A stretch of DNA of 32,374 nucleotides from a virus. This document shows, in pieces, positions 993 to 27,822 of the stretch. The notes below the pieces were generated by a model. The model was not told the origin of the DNA, ran no database searches, and saw nothing but the letters and a program-made list of their open reading frames with translations. Position 1 is the first letter of the stretch. Each line of letters starts with the position of its first letter. A program made the translations under genes and the position numbers. The stretch is from IMG/VR virus record IMGVR_UViG_3300048506_000020, positions 1 through 32,374 of that record. One strand, 5' to 3'.

Positions 993-1751
993 ATGAGCCA
1001 GATAGACAACGCAAAACAAGAAGTATTTGATTACGTAAAAGCAATGCTCGGCGACGGTATGATCGACGTCGAACTAGATCCCGTTCATTACGAAACAGGA
1101 TTAAAACGTGCGCTGGGAGTTTTTAGACAGCGTTCTGATAACGCAGTTGAAGAAAGTTATATTACACTTACACTTGAAAGTGAAAAGAATGATTATATTT
1201 TACCTGATGAAATACAGCAAGTAAGACAAATTTTTAGACGTTCAGTTGGTTCACGTACAGGTAACGGAACAGGCGGTACAGTATTTGAACCGTTCAACTT
1301 AGCATACACTAATACATATTTGTTAAGTTCAACCAATATGGGCGGACTTGCAACATACGAATTATTTGCAGGTTATCAAGAAATGGTAGGTAAAATGTTT
1401 GGTTCATTTATCAACTTTACTTGGAATCCGCAAAGTAAGAAACTAATTATTATGCAACGTCCTAGAGGAGAAGAACAAGTACTTCTTTGGTGTTACAATA
1501 ATAAACCTGATTACACAATTATTAATGATCAATATGCAGGACAGTGGGTTAAAGATTATACACTTGCTAATTGCAAAGTAATGCTAGGACAAGCAAGAGA
1601 AAAATTTGCTAGTATCGCAGGTCCACAAGGCGGAACTGCACTTAACGGTGCTAGTATTAAACAAGAAGGCTTTCAGGATATTGAAAGGCTGACAGCAGAA
1701 TTGGTAACACTAGTACCAGGTGGCCAAGGGTACTATTGGATTAACGGATAA
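993..1751 (+). CDS. 13: Neck/head-completion protein, gp13-like
   Basis: The product is 252 residues. The core carries short elements I associate with the gp13 neck family of marine T4-like phages: an N-terminal helix leading to a predicted beta strand with YITLTLESEKNDYILPDEI, and a C-terminal WVKDYTLANCKVMLGQ-AREKF segment followed by G-TALNG-x-I-x2-EG and a terminal helix. In T4, gp13 with gp14 closes the filled head and forms the neck to which the tail attaches. An in-frame upstream ATG exists at 954, but the late box CATAAATA at 980-987 lies inside that extension, 5 nt from the ATG at 993, so I use 993. The stop overlaps the next start (TAATG). Confidence 0.7.
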   Translation: MSQIDNAKQEVFDYVKAMLGDGMIDVELDPVHYETGLKRALGVFRQRSDNAVEESYITLTLESEKNDYILPDEIQQVRQIFRRSVGSRTGNGTGGTVFEPFNLAYTNTYLLSSTNMGGLATYELFAGYQEMVGKMFGSFINFTWNPQSKKLIIMQRPRGEEQVLLWCYNNKPDYTIINDQYAGQWVKDYTLANCKVMLGQAREKFASIAGPQGGTALNGASIKQEGFQDIERLTAELVTLVPGGQGYYWING

Positions 1752-2089
1752 TGAAAGCAACAGAATTTATATCAGAAGAGTACGAACAGTTTTATACAGA
1801 AACTGCAAAAATGGTTTGGGGACGAACTACAGGTACTGCAAAAGGTGGAAAGACCAAACTGCGTTTCCGTTGTTCAAGTGGACCTAGAGCAGGTAGACAA
1901 GTTAGTCATCCATCCAAATGCCATCAGCAGTATAATGTTGCCAAAGCACAAAAAATGAAGACGACCAGAGCAAGAACTGGTCCTACAGCAGTACGTAGAC
2001 AGCAACGTACTAAGTCTATTAACACAGCAAGTGTGTTAGCACGTAAACTTAATACGGGCAAACCAGGCCAGCCAAGACCGTATATTTAG
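1751..2089 (+). CDS. Small basic protein with capsid-targeting-like N-terminus; candidate internal head protein
   Basis: The product is 112 residues and strongly basic after residue 25, with many Lys/Arg, a CSSGPRAGRQVSHPSKCHQQ segment (two Cys, two His) and a KMKTTRARTGPTAVRRQQR stretch suited to nucleic-acid binding. The N-terminus MKATEFISEE resembles the capsid-targeting sequences of T4 internal proteins (MKTYQEFI-type), and I-S-E fits the gp21 protease consensus (L/I)-x-E. I infer a DNA-binding protein carried into the prohead and trimmed there; function is not otherwise known. The ATG overlaps the stop of the gp13-like gene, so it is translationally coupled. It could instead be a structural adaptor. 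Confidence 0.65.
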   Translation: MKATEFISEEYEQFYTETAKMVWGRTTGTAKGGKTKLRFRCSSGPRAGRQVSHPSKCHQQYNVAKAQKMKTTRARTGPTAVRRQQRTKSINTASVLARKLNTGKPGQPRPYI

Positions 2090-8789: not shown

Positions 8790-9230
8790 ATGGCAAAGTT
8801 TGCACAGGGTCGTTACACTGTAAAAAATCCAGAGAAGTACGTAGGTACAAAAAGTCCATTAGCACGAAGTAGTTGGGAAACTGTCTTTATGCGTATGTTA
8901 GATGAACATCCAAGTGTAGCAAAATGGGCAAGTGAAAGTATTAAGATACCGTATCAAGATCCACTTACAGGAAAGTATTCCGTTTATGTTCCTGATTTTT
9001 TTATTGTTTATAACGATAAGAATGGTAAGCAACACGCAGAGGTAATAGAAGTAAAACCTCAGAATCAAACGTTACGTGAGAAGGTAGGCAAAAGTAGATT
9101 CAATCAAGAGCAATATATTAAAAATATGGCTAAATGGGAGGCTGCTGCTGCTTGGTGTAAACAAAAACGTGTTAGATTCCGCATCGTTAGTGAAGAAGAA
9201 ATATTTCACCAAGGTGGCAAGCGTAAATAA
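8790..9230 (+). CDS. 4: Head completion protein (gp4), TnsA-like nuclease fold
   Basis: The product is 146 residues, close to the T4 gp4 length. Recognisable parts are GRY-x-VKNPEKYVG at the N-terminus, RSSWE (E30), VPDFF (D69), E87-V-K89 and a C-terminal KWEAAAAWCKQKRVRFRI. The E...D...ExK layout is that of PD-(D/E)xK/TnsA-type nucleases. T4 gp4 acts after packaging in making heads competent to join tails. The start directly follows the previous stop (taaATG), so translation is probably coupled. Confidence 0.88.
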   Translation: MAKFAQGRYTVKNPEKYVGTKSPLARSSWETVFMRMLDEHPSVAKWASESIKIPYQDPLTGKYSVYVPDFFIVYNDKNGKQHAEVIEVKPQNQTLREKVGKSRFNQEQYIKNMAKWEAAAAWCKQKRVRFRIVSEEEIFHQGGKRK

Positions 9231-9256: not shown

Positions 9257-9769
9257 ATGACCAAGAAGTTAGAAGAATTATTTAATATGGAAGATCAAAA
9301 AGTTGCAGAAGAACAAATTGCAACTGAAGAACCACTTGTGGAAAGCAAAGCAATTGATCCAGAAGTAGCACAAGAAGAAATTAAAAGTGTGGATGCTTCT
9401 TATAAAGCAATATCACAAGTAACACAAGATTTACCACAGATGCGTGAACTAGACTCAATGGGTGAAGGTGAGTTAGATCATTTAGCAACTAAAGCAGAAC
9501 AAGCATATGACGATCTAATGGATTTGGGTATGAATGTAGAAGTACGTTACAGCGGACGTATATTTGAAGTAGCAGGTAGTATGTTAAAGAATGCTATTGA
9601 TGCAAAAACCGCTAAAGTAGATAAAAAACTTAAAGCAGTTGATTTACAACTGAAAAAACTTAAAATTGATCGCGATTCACCGGAAGATCCTAATGAATTA
9701 GTGGATGGAACCGGATATGTTATGCTAGATCGCAATGAATTAATTAGGAAATTAGGCGGAAAGGAATAA
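9257..9769 (+). CDS. 16: Probable small terminase subunit (gp16-like)
   Basis: The product is 170 residues, close to T4 gp16 (164). It has an acidic, disordered N-terminal 45 residues, then a helical core (about 60-140: LDHLATKAEQAYDDLMDLG, RIFEVAGSMLKNAIDAKTAK, and a Lys-rich coiled segment) and a C-terminal YVMLDRNELIRKLGG that resembles the terminal segment of gp16 proteins (a V-F/M-x-G/D-x2-x-EL/LI helix). Small terminases form rings that recognise DNA for packaging and regulate gp17. Location in the head/packaging block supports the call. Sequence similarity in this family is weak, so an alternative head protein is possible. Confidence 0.68.
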   Translation: MTKKLEELFNMEDQKVAEEQIATEEPLVESKAIDPEVAQEEIKSVDASYKAISQVTQDLPQMRELDSMGEGELDHLATKAEQAYDDLMDLGMNVEVRYSGRIFEVAGSMLKNAIDAKTAKVDKKLKAVDLQLKKLKIDRDSPEDPNELVDGTGYVMLDRNELIRKLGGKE

Positions 9770-9777: not shown

Positions 9778-10359
9778 ATGAAGACGTTTAAAGAATATCT
9801 CACAGAGAGCAAAAAAGTATACAGTATTAAGGTAAAGGTTGCTGGAGAGCTACCTGAAGGCTTTGCTGATGAATTAAAGTCGAGACTTGACAACAGAAGT
9901 GTTGTTGAATTTACGCAGTTGAAAACTACACCAGTTACTGAAACACCGCTAGACTTTCCAGAGTTAGCGAACTGTGAAGTACATACGTTTTCACTAGTTA
10001 CAGAATATCCGGTTACACCAACTGATGTTGAAAAAGAAATTTTTGAAATGCAGTGTTGTGAGCCAGGTCATTATGTGGCACGTAATGCACTAAGTCCGTC
10101 AGAAGAATATCAAGCAACTGATGGAAAACGTGAAGGTGCATTATTACACGATAATGAATATAAAGAGGCTGTTGCTGTAGCACATAAAGATTATTTTGGT
10201 GATGATTTTAATAAGTCGTTTTTACAAGACTTATCAAAAGTAGCAGCCGATCGTGCTAAAGAATTAGGACACGACAAATTAAAGGCGGACGTTTACACAG
10301 ACGTACCGGAACTAAAACAAGATGACGCAGGTTTAAAAAGTCCTGTAGGGAGTAACTAA
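9778..10359 (+). CDS. Putative internal head (prohead core) protein with capsid-targeting sequence
   Basis: The product is 193 residues. It begins MKTFKEYLTES, nearly the same pattern as the capsid-targeting sequences of T4 internal proteins (MKTYQEFI-x-E), and L-T-E fits the gp21 protease recognition rule (L/I)-x-E. The remainder has a predicted alpha/beta segment (about residues 15-80) with YSIKVKVAGELPEGF, resembling a small two-layer domain, then a helical C-terminal half and a Lys/Asp-rich tail. I do not recognise an enzymatic motif. I infer that it is co-assembled with the scaffold and cleaved in the prohead. It is in the packaging block with a leaderless-type late promoter. Confidence 0.65.
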   Translation: MKTFKEYLTESKKVYSIKVKVAGELPEGFADELKSRLDNRSVVEFTQLKTTPVTETPLDFPELANCEVHTFSLVTEYPVTPTDVEKEIFEMQCCEPGHYVARNALSPSEEYQATDGKREGALLHDNEYKEAVAVAHKDYFGDDFNKSFLQDLSKVAADRAKELGHDKLKADVYTDVPELKQDDAGLKSPVGSN

Positions 10360-11571: not shown

Positions 11572-11600
11572 AATAGGCTCTTCGGAGCCTATTTCCTTCT
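11572..11600 (+). terminator. Intrinsic terminator with UUCG tetraloop
   Basis: AATAGGCTC-TTCG-GAGCCTATT, a perfect 9-bp stem (11572-11580 with 11585-11593) followed by a T-rich tail, just before the gp17 late promoter. Confidence 0.85.
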
Positions 11601-11612: not shown

Positions 11613-13202
11613 ATGGCAAAGAGTTTAGATGGCGTTCAGATTAAGAAGGCCCATAAAAAAGAAAAATATACACTTGAAGAAATCAAGCACTTAGAAAAGT
11701 GTATGGATCCTATTAACGGACCATTATATTTCTGTGAAAACTTTTTAACAATTCAACACCCTACCAAAGGTTCAATGAAATTTGTTCCTTACGGATTTCA
11801 ACGAGAACTTATACAAGCATACGCAGAAAATAGATACTGTGTTGCTATGTTACCAAGACAGATGGGCAAAACAACTTGTGCTGCTGGTTATTTGTTATGG
11901 TATACAATGTTTACTCCTGAAGCACAGGTATTAATTGCTGCACACAAATATACAGGTGCACAAGATATTATGAATAGATATAGATTTGGGTATGAAACTT
12001 TGCCAGACTTTATTCGTGCAGGAATCTATACATACAACAGAAACACAATTGAATTTGATAACGGTAGTAGAATACAAGCAACTACTACAACAGAAGATAC
12101 TGGACGTGGTAAATCACTTTCATTAATATACTGTGATGAGTTTGCATTTGTGCAACCACCAGAAAAAGCCAAAGAGTTTTGGACTGCACTATCTCCTACA
12201 CTGTCAACAGGTGGTAAAGCAATTGTTACAAGTACACCAAACTCAGATGAAGATCAGTTTGCTATGATTTGGGCAGAAGCAAATAAAAAGTTTGATGAAC
12301 ACGGCAATGATAAAAAAGTAGGAACAAACGGATTTTTTCCTTACTTTGCTCCTTGGGTGGAACATCCAGATAGAGACGAAGACTGGGCAAACCAGGAACG
12401 TGCAAAGATCGGCGAAGAAAGATTCCGTCGTGAGTTTGATTGCGAATTCCTAATCTTTGATGAAACATTAATTAACAGTGTTAAACTAGCAACACTTGAA
12501 GGCAAAGAACCAATTGCTAATACAGGTCAAACACGTTGGTACAGTAAAATTAATCCTAAGGCTACACATTTAATTGCACTTGATCCTAGTTTAGGTACAG
12601 GTGGCGATTATGCTGCTATCCAGATATTTGAAATGCCTGCAATGAAGCAAGTTGGAGAATGGCGACACAACCTAACACCAGTACAGCAACAAATACGTGT
12701 ATTACAAGATATTCTAAAATATATTGCTAACGAGCAAACAGCAGCAGGCAATAATAACCCTAATATCTACTATAGTGTAGAAAACAATACTATTGGTGAA
12801 GCAGCACTAGTTGTTATACAAGATATTGGTGAAGAGAACTTTAACGGATTATTTTTAAGCGAACCTATTAGAAAAGGACACGTAAGACGTTATAGAAAAG
12901 GGTTTAATACTACACACAAAACTAAAATTACAGCGTGTAGTTTGTTTAAAAATGCACTAGAAAAAGATAAGATGCAAATATCAAGTAAACCATTGATATC
13001 TGAACTTAAGACATTTGTAGCAACAGGCGTAAGTTACAATGCTAAAACAGGTGAACACGATGATCTAGTATCAGGAGTACTATTGATTTTGCGTATGGCA
13101 GATCAACTAGCAAACTGGGATCCTAAAATATATGAAAAAATGACGGAGAGAATGACCGACGACGAGTATCCATTGCCGATATTCGTATCCGGCGGCTTTT
13201 GA
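11613..13202 (+). CDS. 17: Terminase large subunit (gp17), packaging ATPase/nuclease
   Basis: The product is 529 residues. The N-terminal ATPase shows PYGFQRELI (Q-like motif), LPRQMGKTT (Walker A, about 80-87) and SLIYCDEFAFV (Walker B, about 169-178), followed by VTSTPNSDEDQF (coupling motif). The C-terminal RNase-H-fold nuclease shows LIALDPSLGTGGDYAAI (first Asp about 323), an YYSVENN segment and GEHDDLVSGVLL (about 480-490). It pumps DNA into the prohead and cuts the concatemer at headful. It is somewhat shorter than T4 gp17 (610) but all motifs are intact. The stop overlaps the late promoter of the next gene. Confidence 0.97.
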   Translation: MAKSLDGVQIKKAHKKEKYTLEEIKHLEKCMDPINGPLYFCENFLTIQHPTKGSMKFVPYGFQRELIQAYAENRYCVAMLPRQMGKTTCAAGYLLWYTMFTPEAQVLIAAHKYTGAQDIMNRYRFGYETLPDFIRAGIYTYNRNTIEFDNGSRIQATTTTEDTGRGKSLSLIYCDEFAFVQPPEKAKEFWTALSPTLSTGGKAIVTSTPNSDEDQFAMIWAEANKKFDEHGNDKKVGTNGFFPYFAPWVEHPDRDEDWANQERAKIGEERFRREFDCEFLIFDETLINSVKLATLEGKEPIANTGQTRWYSKINPKATHLIALDPSLGTGGDYAAIQIFEMPAMKQVGEWRHNLTPVQQQIRVLQDILKYIANEQTAAGNNNPNIYYSVENNTIGEAALVVIQDIGEENFNGLFLSEPIRKGHVRRYRKGFNTTHKTKITACSLFKNALEKDKMQISSKPLISELKTFVATGVSYNAKTGEHDDLVSGVLLILRMADQLANWDPKIYEKMTERMTDDEYPLPIFVSGGF

Positions 13203-19816: not shown

Positions 19817-20587
19817 ATGAAAACAATTGTATTAGTAACCGGTGGCTTTGACCCACTACACAGTGGACACATTGCCTATTTCAAAGAAGCAAAGAAGCTC
19901 GGCGACAAACTTATTGTTGGCGTGAATAGTGACGATTGGCTTACACGTAAAAAAGGCAGACCATTTATGCCTTTTGATGAACGTCTTGCAATCATTAGAG
20001 AACTAGCAGTCGTAGATGATGTACTTTCGTTTGATGATAGTGACGATAGTGCGTGTGGTGCAATTTTTAAAGCAATGGCCACAAACGGCGCAGTTAAAAT
20101 TCTATTTGCAAATGGTGGCGATAGAGAACAAACTAATATTCCTGAATACGAAACATACGGTGATCATCCTAATGTAGAATTTGCATTTGGTGTAGGTGGC
20201 CAAGATAAAAAGAATTCAAGTAGTTGGATACTTCAAGAATGGAAAAATCCTAAGACAGAACGTGCTTGGGGCTATTATAGAGTACTTCACGAATACGGTA
20301 AAAAAGTTAAAGTAAAAGAACTTACTGTAGAGCCAGGTAAAAAACTTAGTATGCAACGTCATCAAGATAGAGCAGAACATTGGTTTGTAGCAAAGGGCGA
20401 AGCAAGTGTATATACTATTAACAACGCAACAGACTACGAACTTCGTGGCACATTCAAAGAACACAAGTCACTGCACATAGGTAATAAGGAGTGGCATATG
20501 TTAGCAAATGAAACAGATAAACCGCTTCAAATAGTAGAAATTCAATACGGACGTAATTGTGTTGAAGAGGATATCGAACGCAAATGA
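19817..20587 (+). CDS. Nucleotidyltransferase-cupin fusion for sugar activation
   Basis: The product is 256 residues in two parts. The N-terminal 140 residues are a cytidylyltransferase-like domain: VTGGFDPLHSGHIAYFKEAK with the HxGH motif at 15-18, VGVNSDDWLTRKKGRP and a KNSSSWILQEW segment in the place of the ISSTS motif, as in RfaE/HldE C-domains and TagD. The C-terminal 100 residues are a cupin of the mannose-6-phosphate isomerase type II class (VKELTVEPGKKLSMQRHQDR, then AEHWFVAKGEASVY). I infer activation and isomerisation steps for an unusual sugar. It is the first gene of the glycan operon; its stop overlaps the next ATG. Confidence 0.82.
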   Translation: MKTIVLVTGGFDPLHSGHIAYFKEAKKLGDKLIVGVNSDDWLTRKKGRPFMPFDERLAIIRELAVVDDVLSFDDSDDSACGAIFKAMATNGAVKILFANGGDREQTNIPEYETYGDHPNVEFAFGVGGQDKKNSSSWILQEWKNPKTERAWGYYRVLHEYGKKVKVKELTVEPGKKLSMQRHQDRAEHWFVAKGEASVYTINNATDYELRGTFKEHKSLHIGNKEWHMLANETDKPLQIVEIQYGRNCVEEDIERK

Positions 20588-21396
20588 ACGATTGGATATT
20601 CTTAAGTAAGGATAATAAAGATCCGTATATTAATGAATTTGCAGCAGGTTGTAAATCTAGTACAACCGATGCCAACGACTTTAAGTATGACAGTGAAGAT
20701 GAACGTCCAATCGTGCTCAGAGGAATACTTAAAAAGAAAATTATGCACAAGTGTTTTGAAGATAATAGAGATTTCTATTATATGGATACAGGATACTTTG
20801 GCAATGAAGTTACAAAAAGCAATCCTAACGGTTGGAAGTATTGGCACAGAATTGTTAAAAACGATTTACAACACGGCAATATTATTGAACGACCAGATGA
20901 CAGATTTAAACAGTTTAAGAAAGAGTTTGCGCCTTGGAAGAAAAGCGGACGTAAAATTTTAATTGCTGCTCCTGATGAAAAGCCTTGTAAATTCTACGGT
21001 ATTAATTTGGAAGAGTGGTTGCACACAACTGTTGCTCAATTAAAAAAATACACTGATCGTCCTATCGAAGTAAGACGCCGAGATAAACAAAGAAGCACAC
21101 GTTTAACAGATACATTAGAACAAGCATTAAACAAAGATGTATTTGCACTAGTTACATTCAACAGCAATGCAGCAACAGAGTCAGTATTTCACGGTATACC
21201 TGTGTTTCCACTAGCACCTGCAAACTCTGCAATAGCAGTTGGGAGTAAAGATTTAAGTCTAATAGAAACACCTTACTATCCATCAGAAGATAAAAGATAT
21301 GCTTGGGGTTGTCATTTAGCATACGGCCAATATCACGTAAGTGAATTAAGAACAGGCAAGGCCAAAAAACTTTTGGAGGAACAATGGAAAAACTAA
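20584..21396 (+). CDS. GT-B-like glycan protein, family copy A
   Basis: The product is 270 residues. Elements shared with the genes at 22066 and 22842: IVLRGI near 44-49, DTGYFGN (68-74), WHRIVKN (87-93), KKYTDRPIEVR (about 155-165) and NSNAATESVFHGIPV (194-208). The last motif resembles the nucleotide-sugar-site segment of capsular/LPS-type GT-B transferases (S-x-A-x-E-x...G-x-P), and the Y-T-D-R-P strand precedes the spot where copies D and E carry an R-x-HP motif, absent here. I infer a glycosyltransferase-fold protein acting on a glycan; activity is uncertain. The ATG overlaps the upstream stop (ATGA). Confidence 0.6.
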   Translation: MNDWIFLSKDNKDPYINEFAAGCKSSTTDANDFKYDSEDERPIVLRGILKKKIMHKCFEDNRDFYYMDTGYFGNEVTKSNPNGWKYWHRIVKNDLQHGNIIERPDDRFKQFKKEFAPWKKSGRKILIAAPDEKPCKFYGINLEEWLHTTVAQLKKYTDRPIEVRRRDKQRSTRLTDTLEQALNKDVFALVTFNSNAATESVFHGIPVFPLAPANSAIAVGSKDLSLIETPYYPSEDKRYAWGCHLAYGQYHVSELRTGKAKKLLEEQWKN

Positions 21397-22073
21397 AAGT
21401 ATTTGTAGGATATGATCCTAGAGAAGACATTGCATATCAAGTATGCAAACACAGCATTGAGTCGAGAAGTCCTAATGCAGAAGTAATACCTTTAATACAA
21501 AAAGATTTAAGAGAGCAAGGGTATTATGACAGACCAATTGACAAACTAGCAAGTACAGAATTTACATTTACAAGATTCTTAGTACCTGAACTAAGCAACT
21601 TTAATGGCTGGGCAATGTTTATGGATTGTGATATGATCCTTACAACAGACATTGCAGAACTATTTGCACAAGCAAATGACGACTATGCTTTAATGTGTGT
21701 AAAGCACGACTATACACCTAAAGCAGGTATTAAAATGGACGGACAAGCACAAACTGTGTATCCACGTAAAAATTGGTCAAGTGTAATGCTTTTTAATTGT
21801 AGTCATCCAAGCAATCAAGATATTAACGTACAACTTGTTAATGATCCAACAGTTACAGGAAAATATTTACATAGATTTAGTTGGCTTGACGATAAAGAAA
21901 TTGGAGAACTAAGTCCGGAGTGGAATTGGTTAGTAGGTTGGTATAAAGAACCACAAGACGGAACTCCAAAACTGTTACACTATACAGAAGGCGGTCCTTG
22001 GTTTGAAAACTACAGACACTGTCAATATAATCAACTATGGAAAAAAGAACTAAGTGAGATGATGAATGGATGA
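21384..22073 (+). CDS. Glycosyltransferase, GT8-like (GT-A fold)
   Basis: The product is 229 residues. It begins with VFVGYDPREDIAYQV (nucleotide-binding strand), has STEFTFTRFLVPEL (about 57-70) and the metal-binding DCD at 81-83 in AMFMDCDMILTTDI, and later KNWSSVMLFN and LLHYTEGGPW. This order is typical of GT8-type retaining transferases that use UDP-sugars with Mn2+. It would add a hexose or similar sugar to a phage- or host-borne acceptor. GGAGG lies just before the ATG, which overlaps copy A by 13 nt, and its end overlaps copy B by 8 nt. Confidence 0.8.
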   Translation: MEKLKVFVGYDPREDIAYQVCKHSIESRSPNAEVIPLIQKDLREQGYYDRPIDKLASTEFTFTRFLVPELSNFNGWAMFMDCDMILTTDIAELFAQANDDYALMCVKHDYTPKAGIKMDGQAQTVYPRKNWSSVMLFNCSHPSNQDINVQLVNDPTVTGKYLHRFSWLDDKEIGELSPEWNWLVGWYKEPQDGTPKLLHYTEGGPWFENYRHCQYNQLWKKELSEMMNG

Positions 22074-22845
22074 AACACTAGGACTTGAAGAATCATTAGT
22101 AAAAGGTAGCAACAACCGTCTTACGTTAGATGCTAACGATACTACTAAGCCGCAAGTTATACGTGGTGTAATCAAAGACCATCATCGAAATAATGCACAA
22201 GCGATTGGAAGAGATTATTGGTATATTGATACAGGTTACTTTGGAAACTTTCCTAGTGCTGGTAACAAGAAAGGCCAAAAGAAGTGGCACCGTGTTGTTA
22301 AAAATGAAAATCAACAAGTTGACATTGTAGATGTTCCATCAGACCGTTGGGAAAGATTAGTTAATGACGATCCAAGACTAGTTTGGAAAGGATGGAAAGA
22401 TTACGATAAAAAAATACTGTTAGTAATGCCTAATCCAAAAGCCTGTAAATGGTATAACATCAATTACGATAAATGGGTTACTGATACACAAGAACAAATT
22501 GCCAAATACAGCGACTTGCCAGTTGAAGTACGTATAAAAGGATCACGCAGAGAACGTAATGCAGGCTATACAATATATGATGCATTTGATAGTGGTGTTT
22601 ATGCTACTGTTGCAATGAATAGTATGGCTGCACTAGAATCAGTTCTATACGGTATTCCTGCTTTTGTAAGTGTTCCGTGTGCTGCTAGTCCTTTAGCATC
22701 AATGGACTTATCACAACTAGCAAATCCAGTTAAACCTAAATTTAAACACATAGAAAGGCATTGTAAGAATCTTGCATACACACAATTTACTATTGAAGAA
22801 ATACAAAGTGGTATTGCATATAAACTTACTGAACAATATCGATGA
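22066..22845 (+). CDS. GT-B-like glycan protein, family copy B
   Basis: The product is 259 residues and is a clear relative of the 20584 gene over its full length: QVIRGVIKDH (30-39), DTGYFGN (55-61), KKWHRVVKN (72-80), QIAKYSDLPVEVR (about 144-156) and NSMAALESVLYGIPA (185-199). As in copy A, the R-x-HP motif of copies D/E is absent. The C-terminal FTIEEIQSGIAYKL matches the ending (E/D)-(E/L)-x-x-G seen in all five copies. Function is inferred only as glycan-modifying. Coupled by 8- and 4-nt overlaps with its neighbours. Confidence 0.6.
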   Translation: MDETLGLEESLVKGSNNRLTLDANDTTKPQVIRGVIKDHHRNNAQAIGRDYWYIDTGYFGNFPSAGNKKGQKKWHRVVKNENQQVDIVDVPSDRWERLVNDDPRLVWKGWKDYDKKILLVMPNPKACKWYNINYDKWVTDTQEQIAKYSDLPVEVRIKGSRRERNAGYTIYDAFDSGVYATVAMNSMAALESVLYGIPAFVSVPCAASPLASMDLSQLANPVKPKFKHIERHCKNLAYTQFTIEEIQSGIAYKLTEQYR

Positions 22846-23957
22846 AACTACTTTTAAATGACAAAGAAATAGCAAACTACTTACTGCACACTATCGGTGT
22901 GCCAGCAGGACTGTATAAATTAAGACCAACTGACAGAAATGCTGCCGAATGTGTACAGGCTTTCCTAAAGCGCAAAAACAAAGTCCGTGAATGGAATATG
23001 AATCCAGAAGTTGCAAGAGCAGAGAAGAAAAAGTTTGCAAATAAACTAAAAAAAGCAGTTGCTAACGATTTAACTGATTATCGTAATGCTGTGAAGCAAG
23101 AAAAATTTAATTTACGTAATGCATACTTTAATACTATTCATAAAGAGATAGAAACACTAATAGAGCATTTCGGCGAAGACAATATTCTTAAAAAATATAA
23201 AAAAAGCGATGTTACAGAGTTTGTAAAAGGCTGCGGACTTAACTTAGACCCTAAAGGGCAGTTAATGCGTAGACATAAGTTCACTAGTTACACAGAAGAT
23301 TGTGTAATTAGAAATACTGTTGGTAATGAAGAATTATTAGTTAATAAAATAGACAATAATCACCCTATGTGGTTTATTGACAGCGGATATACAAACTTTT
23401 TAGAACAAAATAAGAAATGGCATAGACTAGTACGCAACCATTTACATTACGGAGAGTTTTTTCAAGCACCTGCAGATAGATTAGGCAACTTTAAAACGTT
23501 TCCTAAGCCTTGGAGAGAAGACGGCGAGATAATCTACGTAATTGAGCCAGGACCATTTGCTGCAAGTGTATTTCATTGCGATTTAAAGACTTGGAAATAT
23601 GATGTAGCAAGAGAGTTACGTCAGTATACTGACAAGCGCATTAAATTTAGATCCAAAGCACCTAAAAGACAACGCACAAACTTATATAAAGAACTAGCAG
23701 ACGATGATTATTGCTGTGTTGTCAGTATTAATAGTAATGCTGCTACAGAAGCAATTTGGCAAGGTGTACCAGCCATTACATTAGGCGCACACGTAACTAA
23801 TCCAGTAACTGTAGACAAACTAAGTGACATAAACAACCTATATAGGGGTCCATTAGGCGAATGGTTATGTATGTTAAGTTACCAACAGTTTACTAAGGAA
23901 GAAATTGTAACAGGAACAGCAGGGAACTTGGTTAAAAAGTATACGGTCAATGAGTAA
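22842..23957 (+). CDS. GT-B-like glycan protein, family copy C, with extra N-terminal helical region
   Basis: The product is 371 residues. The last 220 align with copies A and B: CVIRNTVG (154-161), FIDSGY (178-183), KKWHRLVRN (191-199), LRQYTDKRIKFR (259-270) and NSNAATEAIWQGVPA (297-311), ending FTKEEIVTGTAGNL. The first 150 residues are a separate Lys-rich, mostly helical part (LKRKNKVREWNMNPEVARAE, KKAVANDLTDYRNAVKQEKF) that A and B lack; it may bind a partner or acceptor. The start overlaps copy B's stop (ATGA), and the end overlaps the next gene by 8 nt. Confidence 0.6.
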   Translation: MKLLLNDKEIANYLLHTIGVPAGLYKLRPTDRNAAECVQAFLKRKNKVREWNMNPEVARAEKKKFANKLKKAVANDLTDYRNAVKQEKFNLRNAYFNTIHKEIETLIEHFGEDNILKKYKKSDVTEFVKGCGLNLDPKGQLMRRHKFTSYTEDCVIRNTVGNEELLVNKIDNNHPMWFIDSGYTNFLEQNKKWHRLVRNHLHYGEFFQAPADRLGNFKTFPKPWREDGEIIYVIEPGPFAASVFHCDLKTWKYDVARELRQYTDKRIKFRSKAPKRQRTNLYKELADDDYCCVVSINSNAATEAIWQGVPAITLGAHVTNPVTVDKLSDINNLYRGPLGEWLCMLSYQQFTKEEIVTGTAGNLVKKYTVNE

Positions 23958-24873
23958 GAGAACAGCAGTAGCATATTTTGCTGGCATTCCGCCACAAAAT
24001 AACAATCCAGAGAAACCATTAATACTAAAAAACTTTATCGAAGGTGTAAATGCCGCTGGAGACACTGGTATTTCACATCAAGGCTTTAATGTTCTTGAGT
24101 GTGACGTTGCATTTATACAAGGTTTTGTACACGAACACGGAAAAACATCGCCGCATTTACTATTACGCAGAAACGCAGTAGAAAAACAAAAACAAGTGGG
24201 CAAACGGTCACTAATTGTTGATAGTAACTTGTTTTTATATGCAGATCAAGGTAATACAAAAACATATCTGCGTTACAGTTTCGATGGAGTCTTTCCTACT
24301 ACAGGATTTTACTTTGATAAGGATATTGATCCTGCAAGATGGAAAAAAATTAGTGCAGAACTTAATTTACCACTTAAAAATTACAGAAAAGATGGCAAAC
24401 ATATCTTAGTTTGCTTACAACGTAACGGTGGATGGTCAATGAAAGGCATTCCTGTAATGCAATGGCTAACTGATACTATTAGAGAAATTAAAAAACACAC
24501 TGACAGACCAATTGTAGTAAGAGCGCACCCAGGTGATAAAAAAGCAAGAAGATATTTGCATATTAATGAGCCAAATGTGTTTGTATCCTGGGCACCAAAC
24601 ATACGAAATGACTTACTTAATGCTTGGGCAACTGTAGTTTACAATAGTTCCCCTAGTGTAGCAAGTTTAATTGAAGGAGTACCTGTATTTGTTACAGATA
24701 CTGACCCAAGTGTAAGCCAAGTTAATGGAGTTTGCAATACAAACTTAAAAAGACTAGAAGATCCAAAAATGTATGACAGACAAGAGTGGATAGAAAGACT
24801 ATCAATGTGTCATTGGAACTTTAACGAACTAAAAAGTGGTGAAGCCTGGTCTTTTTTTAGGAGATACATATGA
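23950..24873 (+). CDS. GT-B-like glycosyltransferase, family copy D, with R-x-HP motif
   Basis: The product is 307 residues. The C-terminal half shows HILVCLQRNGGWSMKG (150-165), IKKHTDRPIVVRAHPGDKK (180-198), NSSPSVASLIEGVPV (232-246) and a closing FNELKSGEAW. R-x-HP...K plus S-x2-S-x-A-x-E-G-x-P is the pattern of KpsC/KpsS-type and CapS-like polysaccharide transferases. With copy E it keeps the presumed donor-binding residues that copies A-C have lost, so it is the better candidate for an active enzyme. The N-terminal half is the acceptor-side Rossmann domain. Overlaps copy C by 8 nt and the next gene by 4 nt. Confidence 0.68.
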   Translation: MSKRTAVAYFAGIPPQNNNPEKPLILKNFIEGVNAAGDTGISHQGFNVLECDVAFIQGFVHEHGKTSPHLLLRRNAVEKQKQVGKRSLIVDSNLFLYADQGNTKTYLRYSFDGVFPTTGFYFDKDIDPARWKKISAELNLPLKNYRKDGKHILVCLQRNGGWSMKGIPVMQWLTDTIREIKKHTDRPIVVRAHPGDKKARRYLHINEPNVFVSWAPNIRNDLLNAWATVVYNSSPSVASLIEGVPVFVTDTDPSVSQVNGVCNTNLKRLEDPKMYDRQEWIERLSMCHWNFNELKSGEAWSFFRRYI

Positions 24874-25622
24874 GAAAACTAGCCAATGGATGGCACGTAC
24901 CTGAAGGTGATACAAAAATGACAAGACATATCGAAACAGATAAGTCACCGTCACTTGCAGAGTATGAGCAAAAGCAAAGAAAAACAATTTTAGAACATAT
25001 TCCGCAAAAAAATACTTTTGTTGACGTAGGTGCTAACGTTGGTGTATGGAGTATGACACTACAACAACATTTTAAGCACGTTGTAAGTTATGAGCCAAGC
25101 AAACGTAATGTAGAATGCCTCGAGAATAATGTTCAAGGCAAGACAGAAATTAGAAATACTGCACTTTCCGACTTCAATGGCGAATCACAGTTTCACGATG
25201 AAATTAAAAATTGCGGAAACAGTAAATTATGGGCAGAATCATCACAGACTGGGTTATACAAAGTACCCGTAAGAAAATTAGACGATGAAAATATTGAAAA
25301 TATTTCACTAATTAAAATGGATGTTCAAGGATATGAATGGCAAGTTATACAAGGCGCACAAAATGTTATAGAGACACAACAACCTTGGATAGCATTTGAA
25401 GTAAGTGCTGATGTAGACGTAATTTGCAAGTTTTTAGAAGATAGAAATTACGATATGATTGATAATAAGAGTAAACGTATTCTTATCTATGCACCGAAAT
25501 CAGGAATCAATGCACCTACACAAAATGCATTTGGTAGACGTATGGGTCCTGGACCTTATGTGTTACTATTACCTGAAGATAAACAACAAATTGCAGCAGC
25601 ACGCCACGGAAATTTATCGTAA
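24870..25622 (+). CDS. FkbM-family methyltransferase
   Basis: The product is 250 residues. SAM-binding motif I is FVDVGANVGVWSM (50-62), the acidic strand-2 end is YEPSKRN (E75), and the FkbM-typical LIKMDVQGYEWQVIQGA is at 147-163. FkbM enzymes O-methylate sugars in polysaccharides and other natural products, so this one probably caps or decorates the glycan made by the surrounding transferases. AGGAGATA precedes an ATG that overlaps copy D's stop. It is the last plus-strand gene of this operon and runs convergently into a minus-strand glycosyltransferase (9-nt overlap) with no terminator. Confidence 0.88.
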   Translation: MRKLANGWHVPEGDTKMTRHIETDKSPSLAEYEQKQRKTILEHIPQKNTFVDVGANVGVWSMTLQQHFKHVVSYEPSKRNVECLENNVQGKTEIRNTALSDFNGESQFHDEIKNCGNSKLWAESSQTGLYKVPVRKLDDENIENISLIKMDVQGYEWQVIQGAQNVIETQQPWIAFEVSADVDVICKFLEDRNYDMIDNKSKRILIYAPKSGINAPTQNAFGRRMGPGPYVLLLPEDKQQIAAARHGNLS

Positions 25623-26459
25623 TTGATTTTGCCAGTAAGGCTCAGTACGCATAATTTTTAAATCATCACGCTTACTATGTCCTAATTTTTTTCTACCACC
25701 TTTAAGATGATCTAAGTATGCACCCCATTCACAATTAATTAATGGATGCCCTTCCCCTGTACTCATTCCAGGTCTTGGCCTAAGATCTCCAAGGTTAGAT
25801 GACCAACTGTGTGACGGCATTTTTGGAAACTTCCTTCTAACTTCATCAAATACAAAACTATCGTGCCATTCTGCCATTGTAAAGATTCCGTTTTCTGCTT
25901 CATCGTATACACGCTGGAATTCACCAAGGAATCTTTTAATACTTTTTGTACCTAACTTCATTGCATACAGTCCACATTCACTATATTTGCCTCTACGCCC
26001 TAAGTAAAACAATTCAGACGGTGCCGGAAGCAATCGTTGTATATCAGCGTGAGTAATTTTTGAGTGACAAATTGTATCAGCATCCATCCACATCAAATAT
26101 TCTGTATTGCATTCTTTAGCACAAGCAAAGATACTATAAACTTTGTGTGCAAAGCGAACAGCGTGCCATTTAAAACCTTTGCCACTGTCTCTTCTTCTAG
26201 ATCTAATTGGATCAGCAGATACATCGCCATTTGCTTTGGGTACATTTTTCCATTTATCTTTAAATGCAACAAGTTCAGGACTTGCTTGATGTAAATCTTT
26301 AACAATTAAATTATCTGCTGTTTCTTCTACTATGCAATCTTCAGCATATACATATAAATTAATATCTGCAGGCCAGTTTTCTAAGAAAGTCTTAATCATT
26401 CTTTTGCCGTATGTATCGTAACCTGCTTTGTGAAATGTTGTAACTATACTGATATTCAT
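25614..26459 (-). CDS. Glycosyltransferase (GT-A type, DAD motif)
   Basis: The product is 281 residues. It starts MNISIVTTFHKAGYDTYGKR, has FKWHAVRFAHKVYSIF (about 96-111), the presumed metal-binding D-A-D at 126-128 in YLMWMDADTICHSKI, and later ESGLYAMKL-like and HSWSSNLGDL segments. The layout matches small nucleotide-sugar transferases carried by marine phages. A truncated relative begins at 32012 (same VTTF start and FDADT motif). It is the second gene of a minus-strand pair; its start overlaps the stop of the upstream gene by 4 nt. Confidence 0.75.
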   Translation of the reverse strand: MNISIVTTFHKAGYDTYGKRMIKTFLENWPADINLYVYAEDCIVEETADNLIVKDLHQASPELVAFKDKWKNVPKANGDVSADPIRSRRRDSGKGFKWHAVRFAHKVYSIFACAKECNTEYLMWMDADTICHSKITHADIQRLLPAPSELFYLGRRGKYSECGLYAMKLGTKSIKRFLGEFQRVYDEAENGIFTMAEWHDSFVFDEVRRKFPKMPSHSWSSNLGDLRPRPGMSTGEGHPLINCEWGAYLDHLKGGRKKLGHSKRDDLKIMRTEPYWQNQLR

Positions 26460-26857
26460 TTAATTTTGTCCCATATATGATATTTGTCGCCTTGTACTAA
26501 ACAATTATAATTAGCCGCATAAAGTGCAACACTTCTGTCTCTTCCAATAACTTCTTTACCTTCGACTATAACTTCAGGACCTGGATTATGGTATAACGGT
26601 GATATTAAATCCAACGCCTTAATGTGTTCAAGGTCAACAAATACTGCCGACACTGATGACAACGCATACAAAGTTTTCATTTCTCTTCTATATACTACTT
26701 TTTTGTCTTTAACATACATTCCTGTTCTACTGTGTATAAAAACAGTATCAAACATTTCGATAATAGAAGGTAATAAGTTCATTCCTGAGCCTATTACAAT
26801 TGCATCTTTAGGAGTATGCAGTAAAGTTTTTTGTAATCTTTTGGTATGTTTTTTCAT
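26456..26857 (-). CDS. Conserved small protein in the glycan cluster, function unknown
   Basis: The product is 133 residues. It has a basic N-terminal helix (MKKHTKRLQKTLLHTPKD), then alternating strands and helices: AIVIGSGMNLLPSIIEMF, TVFIHSRTG, VSAVFVDLEHIKAL and a C-terminal GRDRSVALYAANYNCLV. The G-S-G turn after a hydrophobic strand suggests a small Rossmann-like fold (a methyltransferase-like or sugar-processing domain), but no complete cofactor motif can be seen. It is translated as a pair with the glycosyltransferase at 25614-26459, so it probably serves the same glycan. Confidence 0.6.
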   Translation of the reverse strand: MKKHTKRLQKTLLHTPKDAIVIGSGMNLLPSIIEMFDTVFIHSRTGMYVKDKKVVYRREMKTLYALSSVSAVFVDLEHIKALDLISPLYHNPGPEVIVEGKEVIGRDRSVALYAANYNCLVQGDKYHIWDKIK

Positions 26858-26922
26858 TGGCTAATTTACTTTAATATATTTAAGTAATTTGTCCATTCTG
26901 CACAAAATTATTGGCTACTGTA

Positions 26923-26930
26923 CTTAAATA
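26923..26930 (+). promoter_or_regulatory. T4-type late promoter box, near-leaderless
   Basis: CTTAAATA, then 6 nt (ctactg), then ATG at 26937, so the leader would be about 1 nt. Confidence 0.55.
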
Positions 26931-26936
26931 CTACTG

Positions 26937-27797
26937 ATGCGTTTTAAGTTATATAGACAACACGGTGCGTTAAACAGTCCTAGTATTTTTGATGCATTTC
27001 AGACAGGACTAATAGCACAAGGACACAAAGTCGTAAATGACAACGAAGATGTTGCTGTCATTTGGTCAGTATTGTGGAACGGCCGTATGTCTGCTAACCA
27101 ACAAATTTATGAAAAATGTCGGAAAGATAACAAGCCTATAATTATTATTGAAGTAGGCAACTTAAAAAGAAATACAACTTGGCGCATATGTCTTAATCAT
27201 ATTAATGGATTAGGAGAGTTTGGTAGTGACGCCGACTTAGATGTAAACAGACCTAAAAAATTAGGTTTACAAATGTCGCCACCTAATACAAATAGACGTA
27301 ACGAAATCCTTATTGCAACACAACATCATAAAAGTTTGCAATGGCAAGGAATGCCGTCAATGGCTGAATGGACATTACAAACTATAGAAAAAATTAAAAA
27401 ATATACAGATCGTCCTATTGTTATTAGGCCGCATCCAAGGTCACCTATGTCTGGCATCGAACACGAATTTACAAATGTAAAAAGACAACAACCTGTAAAA
27501 TTATCTGGAACATACGACAACTTTGATATCGATTATAACTATCACGCTGTTGTTAATCATAATAGTGGACCTCCTATACTTGCTGCTATTGCAGGCACTC
27601 CAGTAATTACAGGCGACAGCAGTCTTGCATATCCTGTTAGTGATACTATAGAAAACATTGACAATCCTAAACTTCCTGATGATAGACTTTTATGGTTTAC
27701 AAAACTTACGCATTGTGAATGGACTGTTGACGAAATAAAACAAGGCACTCCGATAAAAAGATTAGAAAAGTTTATAAAAATGCAAGTAAGTTATTGA
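26937..27797 (+). CDS. GT-B-like glycosyltransferase, family copy E, with R-x-HP motif
   Basis: The product is 286 residues. The C-terminal half shows EILIATQHHKSLQWQGMP (123-140), IKKYTDRPIVIRPHPRSP (153-170), NHNSGPPILAAIAGTPV (207-223) and the ending TVDEIKQGTPI. It is closest to copy D and, like it, keeps the R-x-HP and NS...G-x-P residues of KpsC/KpsS/CapS-like polysaccharide transferases. The N-terminal half has DVAVIWSVLWNGRM, resembling the first Rossmann domain of GT-B folds. It stands alone under a near-leaderless late box, and its stop codon lies inside the -35 element of the next promoter. Confidence 0.68.
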   Translation: MRFKLYRQHGALNSPSIFDAFQTGLIAQGHKVVNDNEDVAVIWSVLWNGRMSANQQIYEKCRKDNKPIIIIEVGNLKRNTTWRICLNHINGLGEFGSDADLDVNRPKKLGLQMSPPNTNRRNEILIATQHHKSLQWQGMPSMAEWTLQTIEKIKKYTDRPIVIRPHPRSPMSGIEHEFTNVKRQQPVKLSGTYDNFDIDYNYHAVVNHNSGPPILAAIAGTPVITGDSSLAYPVSDTIENIDNPKLPDDRLLWFTKLTHCEWTVDEIKQGTPIKRLEKFIKMQVSY

Positions 27798-27822
27798 CTT
27801 CTTAAGTTATAGACTTTATAAT
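27794..27822 (+). promoter_or_regulatory. Sigma70-type promoter, leaderless
   Basis: TTGACT (27794-27799), 17-nt spacer, TATAAT (27817-27822); ATG at 27829 is 6 nt after the -10 element, so the expected start base is at or within a base of the ATG. No ribosome site can be present on this transcript. Confidence 0.8.

Follow-up and report, generated by a model that had tools for sequence, protein, structure and literature searches.

A predicted T4-type capsid-targeting sequence on a conserved virion protein family of marine T4-type and jumbo phages

A 193-residue protein encoded in the window analysed here (32,374 nucleotides of viral DNA, IMG/VR record IMGVR_UViG_3300048506_000020) is probably a core virion protein that bears a T4-type capsid-targeting sequence, is trimmed after residue E10 and has its mature part in the head. 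The N-terminus of its open reading frame (ORF) reads MKTFKEYLTES (9778–9810, plus strand). In the proposed mechanism, the phage would be a member of the T4 superfamily related to the RaK2/PA5oct-type jumbo phages, with the gene specifying a core virion protein. The amphipathic helix of the tag (F4, Y7, L8) would bind the prohead core, the gp21 protease would cut after residue 10 (L-T-E|S) as the head matures, and the decapeptide would be lost. The mature part, S11–N193, would be retained, in the head and not in the tail. The whole window is part of the 92-kb contig G001 (99.97% identity), so the features of G001 can be read as those of the same phage. The relevant features of the window are as follows.

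1751–2089, plus strand: second candidate tagged protein, MKATEFISEE, 112 aa, pI 11.1, kept in three related contigs
8790–9230, plus strand: gp4 head completion protein (phrog_218, E=8e-40; PF08722)
9257–9769, plus strand: gp16-like small terminase homolog directly upstream of the tagged gene (phrog_445 terminase small subunit, E=7e-5; phrog_16202, E=1e-15)
9778–10359, plus strand: ORF of the tagged protein, 193 aa, phrog_14802 family (virion structural)
9778–9807, plus strand: predicted propeptide, the capsid-targeting sequence MKTFKEYLTE, residues 1–10, matching T4 IPI, IPII and IPIII
9808–10356, plus strand: predicted mature protein S11–N193, acidic, residues 14–103 modelled as ferredoxin-like
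11613–13202, plus strand: gp17 large terminase, T4 type (PF03237, E=2e-20); two uncharacterised ORFs lie between it and the tagged gene

We compared the N-terminus with controls from the T4 genome (AF158101), namely IPI (MKTFKEFTST), IPII and IPIII (both MKTYQEFIAE), gp24 (MAKINELLRES) and gp23 (SFLTE|AEI). A sequence-only reading had proposed that the start nearly copies the T4 internal-protein signals; the comparison bears this out, and the closest match is the start of IPI (MKTFKE followed by an aromatic residue) rather than the signal cited in that reading. The protein shares with IPI, IPII and IPIII, whose capsid-targeting sequence was described by Mullaney and Black 1996 (as reviewed in PMC9026906), the ten-residue start MKT[F/Y]xE[F/Y][I/L]xE and a phage-encoded gp21. 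Specifically, the ten-residue motif has F/Y at positions 4 and 7, I/L at position 8 and E at position 10, and F4, Y7, L8 and E10 are in register with the positions tested for IPIII. In those amber-suppression experiments targeting involved mainly residues 4 and 7 and processing residues 8 and 10, and D at position 10 stopped processing but not targeting (PMC9026906). The I-x-E site of T4 IPI lies at residues 17–19, apart from the targeting part, which indicates that targeting part and cut site are separable. The gp23 and gp24 propeptides likewise carry an [L/I]xE site cut by gp21, in gp24 at residues 8–10 (L-R-E in MAKINELLRE|S), although these two proteins belong to the shell and have targeting sequences of other kinds.

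Each of nine related contigs has one match to the pattern MKxxx[QEDH][FY][LIMF]xE, always at the start of the tagged gene, and T4 has three (IPII, IPIII and gp61.1), while the pattern read backwards gave no match in the window, the nine contigs or T4. A search of the same genome for further such starts, suggested earlier, returned for the window a single match, the protein's own gene. Additionally, we observed that T4 gp61.1 (AF158101, 18966–19130; 54 aa, hypothetical) starts with MKTFKEFIKE, a full match to the capsid-targeting sequence; on this likeness gp61.1 is predicted to be packaged.

The protease that would remove the tag is encoded by the same phage. G001 carries a T4-type portal (PF07230), gp23 (PF07068) and a gp21 protease (PF03420, E=1e-22) that retains the GExxHP and GVSSRG motifs common with T4 gp21; gp67-like and gp22-position ORFs adjoin gp21. 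At the position aligned to the T4 E65|A66 cleavage, gp23 of G001 reads YLSE|SATAG, which resembles the tag site of the 193-residue protein (YLTE|S) and of its relatives (YLSE|S or YLAE|S). The earlier proposal that L-T-E obeys the gp21 rule is thus upheld from the phage's own gp21 and gp23, the [L/I]xE specificity being read from the site.

In 56 distinct coding sequences, drawn from two clades, position 10 is always E. Position 8 takes L or I, position 4 takes F, Y or L, and position 7 takes Y, F or L; positions 5 and 9 drift. The drift at residues 5 and 9 and the fixed E10 agree with the roles tested in IPIII (PMC9026906). The relatives were collected partly via the search word MKTFKEYL/MKTFKEFL, so the conservation of residues 1–8 is somewhat inflated, while E10 lies outside the word. 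Residues S11, K13 and Y15 of the mature part are conserved about as strongly as the tag; therefore tag conservation alone is weak evidence.

The tag is not confined to this gene. In a stricter form, MKT[FY]xEF[ILFM]xE, it was found in at least 120 IMG/VR stretches, against 2 stretches in the full IMG/VR collection for a codon-permuted control. Among the matches listed, 98% lie at ORF starts, and the tagged proteins, many of them small and basic, fall into about 58 unrelated clusters (at E 1e-4, no detectable similarity past residue 11). A gp21-family protease is present in 10 of the 11 large contigs with the strict tag, each with as many as six tagged genes. In IMG/VR, 23 unrelated clusters start with a second spelling, M[KR]AT[DE]FIxE. 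This spelling is less strongly linked with gp21 (7 of 14 large contigs), and some mature domains are found under either spelling; no large contig of 25 carried both strict spellings together. The 112-residue MKATEFISEE protein of the window fits a classical internal protein better in size, charge and tag than the 193-residue protein does, and PA5oct has no counterpart of it at the same place.

Evidence that the protein is virion-borne comes from its family. The 193-residue protein matches the profile phrog_14802, 'virion structural protein', with E=2.3e-6 as a whole and 7.6e-4 without the tag, and tag-less homologs match it with E up to 1.5e-6. More than 80 relatives were found in IMG/VR. With tblastn, the window protein alone retrieved one isolate, Phosso; the Phosso hit as the next query retrieved Atu_ph07, PA5oct, RaK2, CBB, GAP32 and others, phages of very different hosts, and no IMG/VR relatives. 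In most jumbo phages, as in the window, the gene follows those for the tail sheath, tail tubes, gp4 and the gp16-position gene, with ribonucleotide reductase genes interposed in Phosso and Atu_ph07; gp17 lies near and downstream in PA5oct, Phosso and Atu_ph07, and elsewhere in RaK2-like phages. The strongest evidence is detection by mass spectrometry: the PA5oct record marks the homolog as ESI-MS/MS-detected, and CBB_210 was recovered from CBB virions with 13 unique peptides and 60.5% coverage (PMC5259590). The sources give no location within the virion, and both detected homologs belong to phages whose tags are weaker (MKSFRDYYDA and MNKLQKILTE). CBB_210, PA5oct gp282, RaK2 ORF047 and GAP32_204 are homologous to the 193-residue protein over the first ~110 residues and share its gene position after gp4 and the gp16-position gene; they differ in looser N-termini (MNKLQKILTE/D, MKSFRDYYDA), often without E10, and in their C-terminal halves. 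The annotated start of the Atu_ph07 homolog (AUZ94910.1) is apparently too far downstream; an upstream ATG gives MKTLQDYLTESKKCYTYHVKF.

These homologs raise the alternative that the N-terminal helix serves for permanent docking, to the capsid, connector or neck, and stays uncleaved, and that L-x-E is a by-product of a helix resembling the T4 tag. The jumbo homologs keep the helix as M-x-x-[F/L]-x-x-[I/Y/F]-[L/I/Y], and many of them have D, S, A or N at position 10: E10 is gone in RaK2 (LTD), XaC1 (LTA), PHA46 (LTS), Phosso (LSS) and PA5oct (YDA), and kept in CBB, GAP32, Vibrio 2.275 and Atu_ph07, the last with a complete tag (MKTLQDYLTE|S). Since RaK2 gp23 retains LFE|S, the RaK2 protease probably still wants E, and the loss of E10 in many jumbo homologs despite this site indicates that cleavage does not extend to the entire family. 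In nearly all homologs a constant distance separates the tag from the first strand, which is also compatible with an uncleaved helix, and the synteny is with tail, neck and terminase genes, not with the head gene block. Against permanent docking, E10 never varies in the two nearest clades, which otherwise diverge, the tag site agrees with that of the phage's own gp23, and the N-terminus is nearly identical to a known removable tag that heads the unrelated clusters described above. We therefore consider permanent docking unlikely for the window protein, though it is the most serious competitor of a trimmed targeting sequence.

Because many jumbo homologs lose E10 yet retain the N-terminal helix, targeting is probably older than cleavage, and trimming would be a trait of some lineages, including the window phage. 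In giant phages, processing of ejection proteins has been reported as not a stable feature (PMC5694885).

We next consider the mature part. Its chain is conserved, with invariant residues throughout and, within its clade, an unchanging PVGS end. An AlphaFold2 model built on a more diverse alignment (mean pLDDT 65) shows a ferredoxin-like beta-alpha-beta-beta-alpha-beta domain at residues 14–103, with pLDDT ~70–84 for residues 11–105. The tag helix (residues 4–10) precedes this core domain at lower confidence, and the C-terminal tail is mostly disordered with one helix. A first model, built from 43 close sequences, was not of usable quality (pLDDT 55.7). Searching the PDB by fold returned only ribosomal protein bS6-like and ferredoxin-like folds with low TM-scores, which indicate no function, and neither a PDB sequence search nor Pfam gave a significant match for the 193-residue protein. 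Two candidate relationships to internal proteins were discarded. The match of a tag-bearing homolog to phrog_2667, 'internal head protein', is driven by the tag and disappears without the first ten residues. A structural resemblance to the phage MX01 protein 'Ip7' (E 0.03) was not taken to reflect homology, as the mature parts are unalignable with the internal protein tested (hhalign probability 0.3%).

These properties bear on the proposal that the protein is an injected anti-defence internal protein, which would enter along with the DNA and block a nuclease of the host. The idea draws on the tag that the protein has in common with T4 IPI, an injected GmrSD inhibitor, and with IPIII, which is needed to infect ECOR17. 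Among T4 internal proteins, those that protect injected DNA are small, basic, highly variable products of accessory genes, whereas the present protein is acidic (pI 4.8, against 8.9–9.5 for IPI–III), is conserved in both sequence and genomic position, has a mature part unrelated to theirs and belongs to a family that spans phages of very different hosts. An anti-defence function is thus improbable. The sequence-only reading had combined this function with head loading and a cut after residue 10. Loading and cutting gain from the T4-type tag, the gp21-type site and the presence of homologs in virions and remain the favoured prediction, while the anti-defence role is not supported, because the protein is acidic, conserved and syntenic and only the tag is common with internal proteins such as phrog_2667. 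For the same reasons, a structural or packaging-related virion component is most likely.

Even less probable is a core or scaffold protein like gp67, gp68 or gp22, which gp21 would degrade so that little is left in virions. The acidity of the protein, the predicted disorder of its C-terminal half and the extra I-F-E and L-P-E motifs within the mature part would suit such a role; it is made less likely by the recovery of CBB_210 from virions at high coverage, by the strong conservation of the whole chain and by the gp67-like and gp22-position ORFs already present beside gp21. The chance resemblance of an ordinary N-terminus, although the motif is short, is very unlikely, given that only ~1e-5 MKT[FY]xE[FY][IL]xE starts are expected from composition in the 331 ORFs of three related contigs, that the looser MK[TS][FYL]x[EQD][FY][IL]xE is expected 0.0005 times per set after shuffling residues 2–31 (the three observed starts are orthologs and were counted as one event), and that the permuted control lies so far below the tag in IMG/VR.

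With a trimmed, head-located virion protein as the preferred reading, the uncharacterised family, found in marine T4-type and several jumbo phages, gains a testable place and processing event. As far as its sequence indicates, the 193-residue protein would itself be a further case of known T4-type targeting; the more interesting by-product is how widely the tag is spread among metagenomic T4-type viruses. The T4 head-import tag becomes a searchable label that marks dozens of metagenomic viral protein families, which may be head-loaded and delivered into cells, and this is where undiscovered anti-defence proteins could be sought. None of the common tag spellings was found in print in the open-access papers searched. 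Much more tentatively, T4-superfamily viruses may have in common a portable code for head import, written in at least two ways, MKT[F/Y]xEF[I/L]xE and M[K/R]AT[D/E]FIxE, which, as part of the same speculative reading, might be carried by dozens of unrelated, mostly undescribed proteins. The 193-residue protein could then be an ancient core cargo whose targeting helix is older than its cleavage site, and the disposable tag of T4 may stem from a permanent docking helix.

Two further observations concern the rest of the window. A T4 late-promoter-like −10 element, TATAAATA, occurs at 11600 and 19804, 13 bases 5' of gp17 and of the ORF at 19817, respectively. In the region 20584–27800, the neighbouring ORFs at 20584, 22066, 22842, 23950 and 26937 look alike by eye and are perhaps duplicated glycan-related genes.
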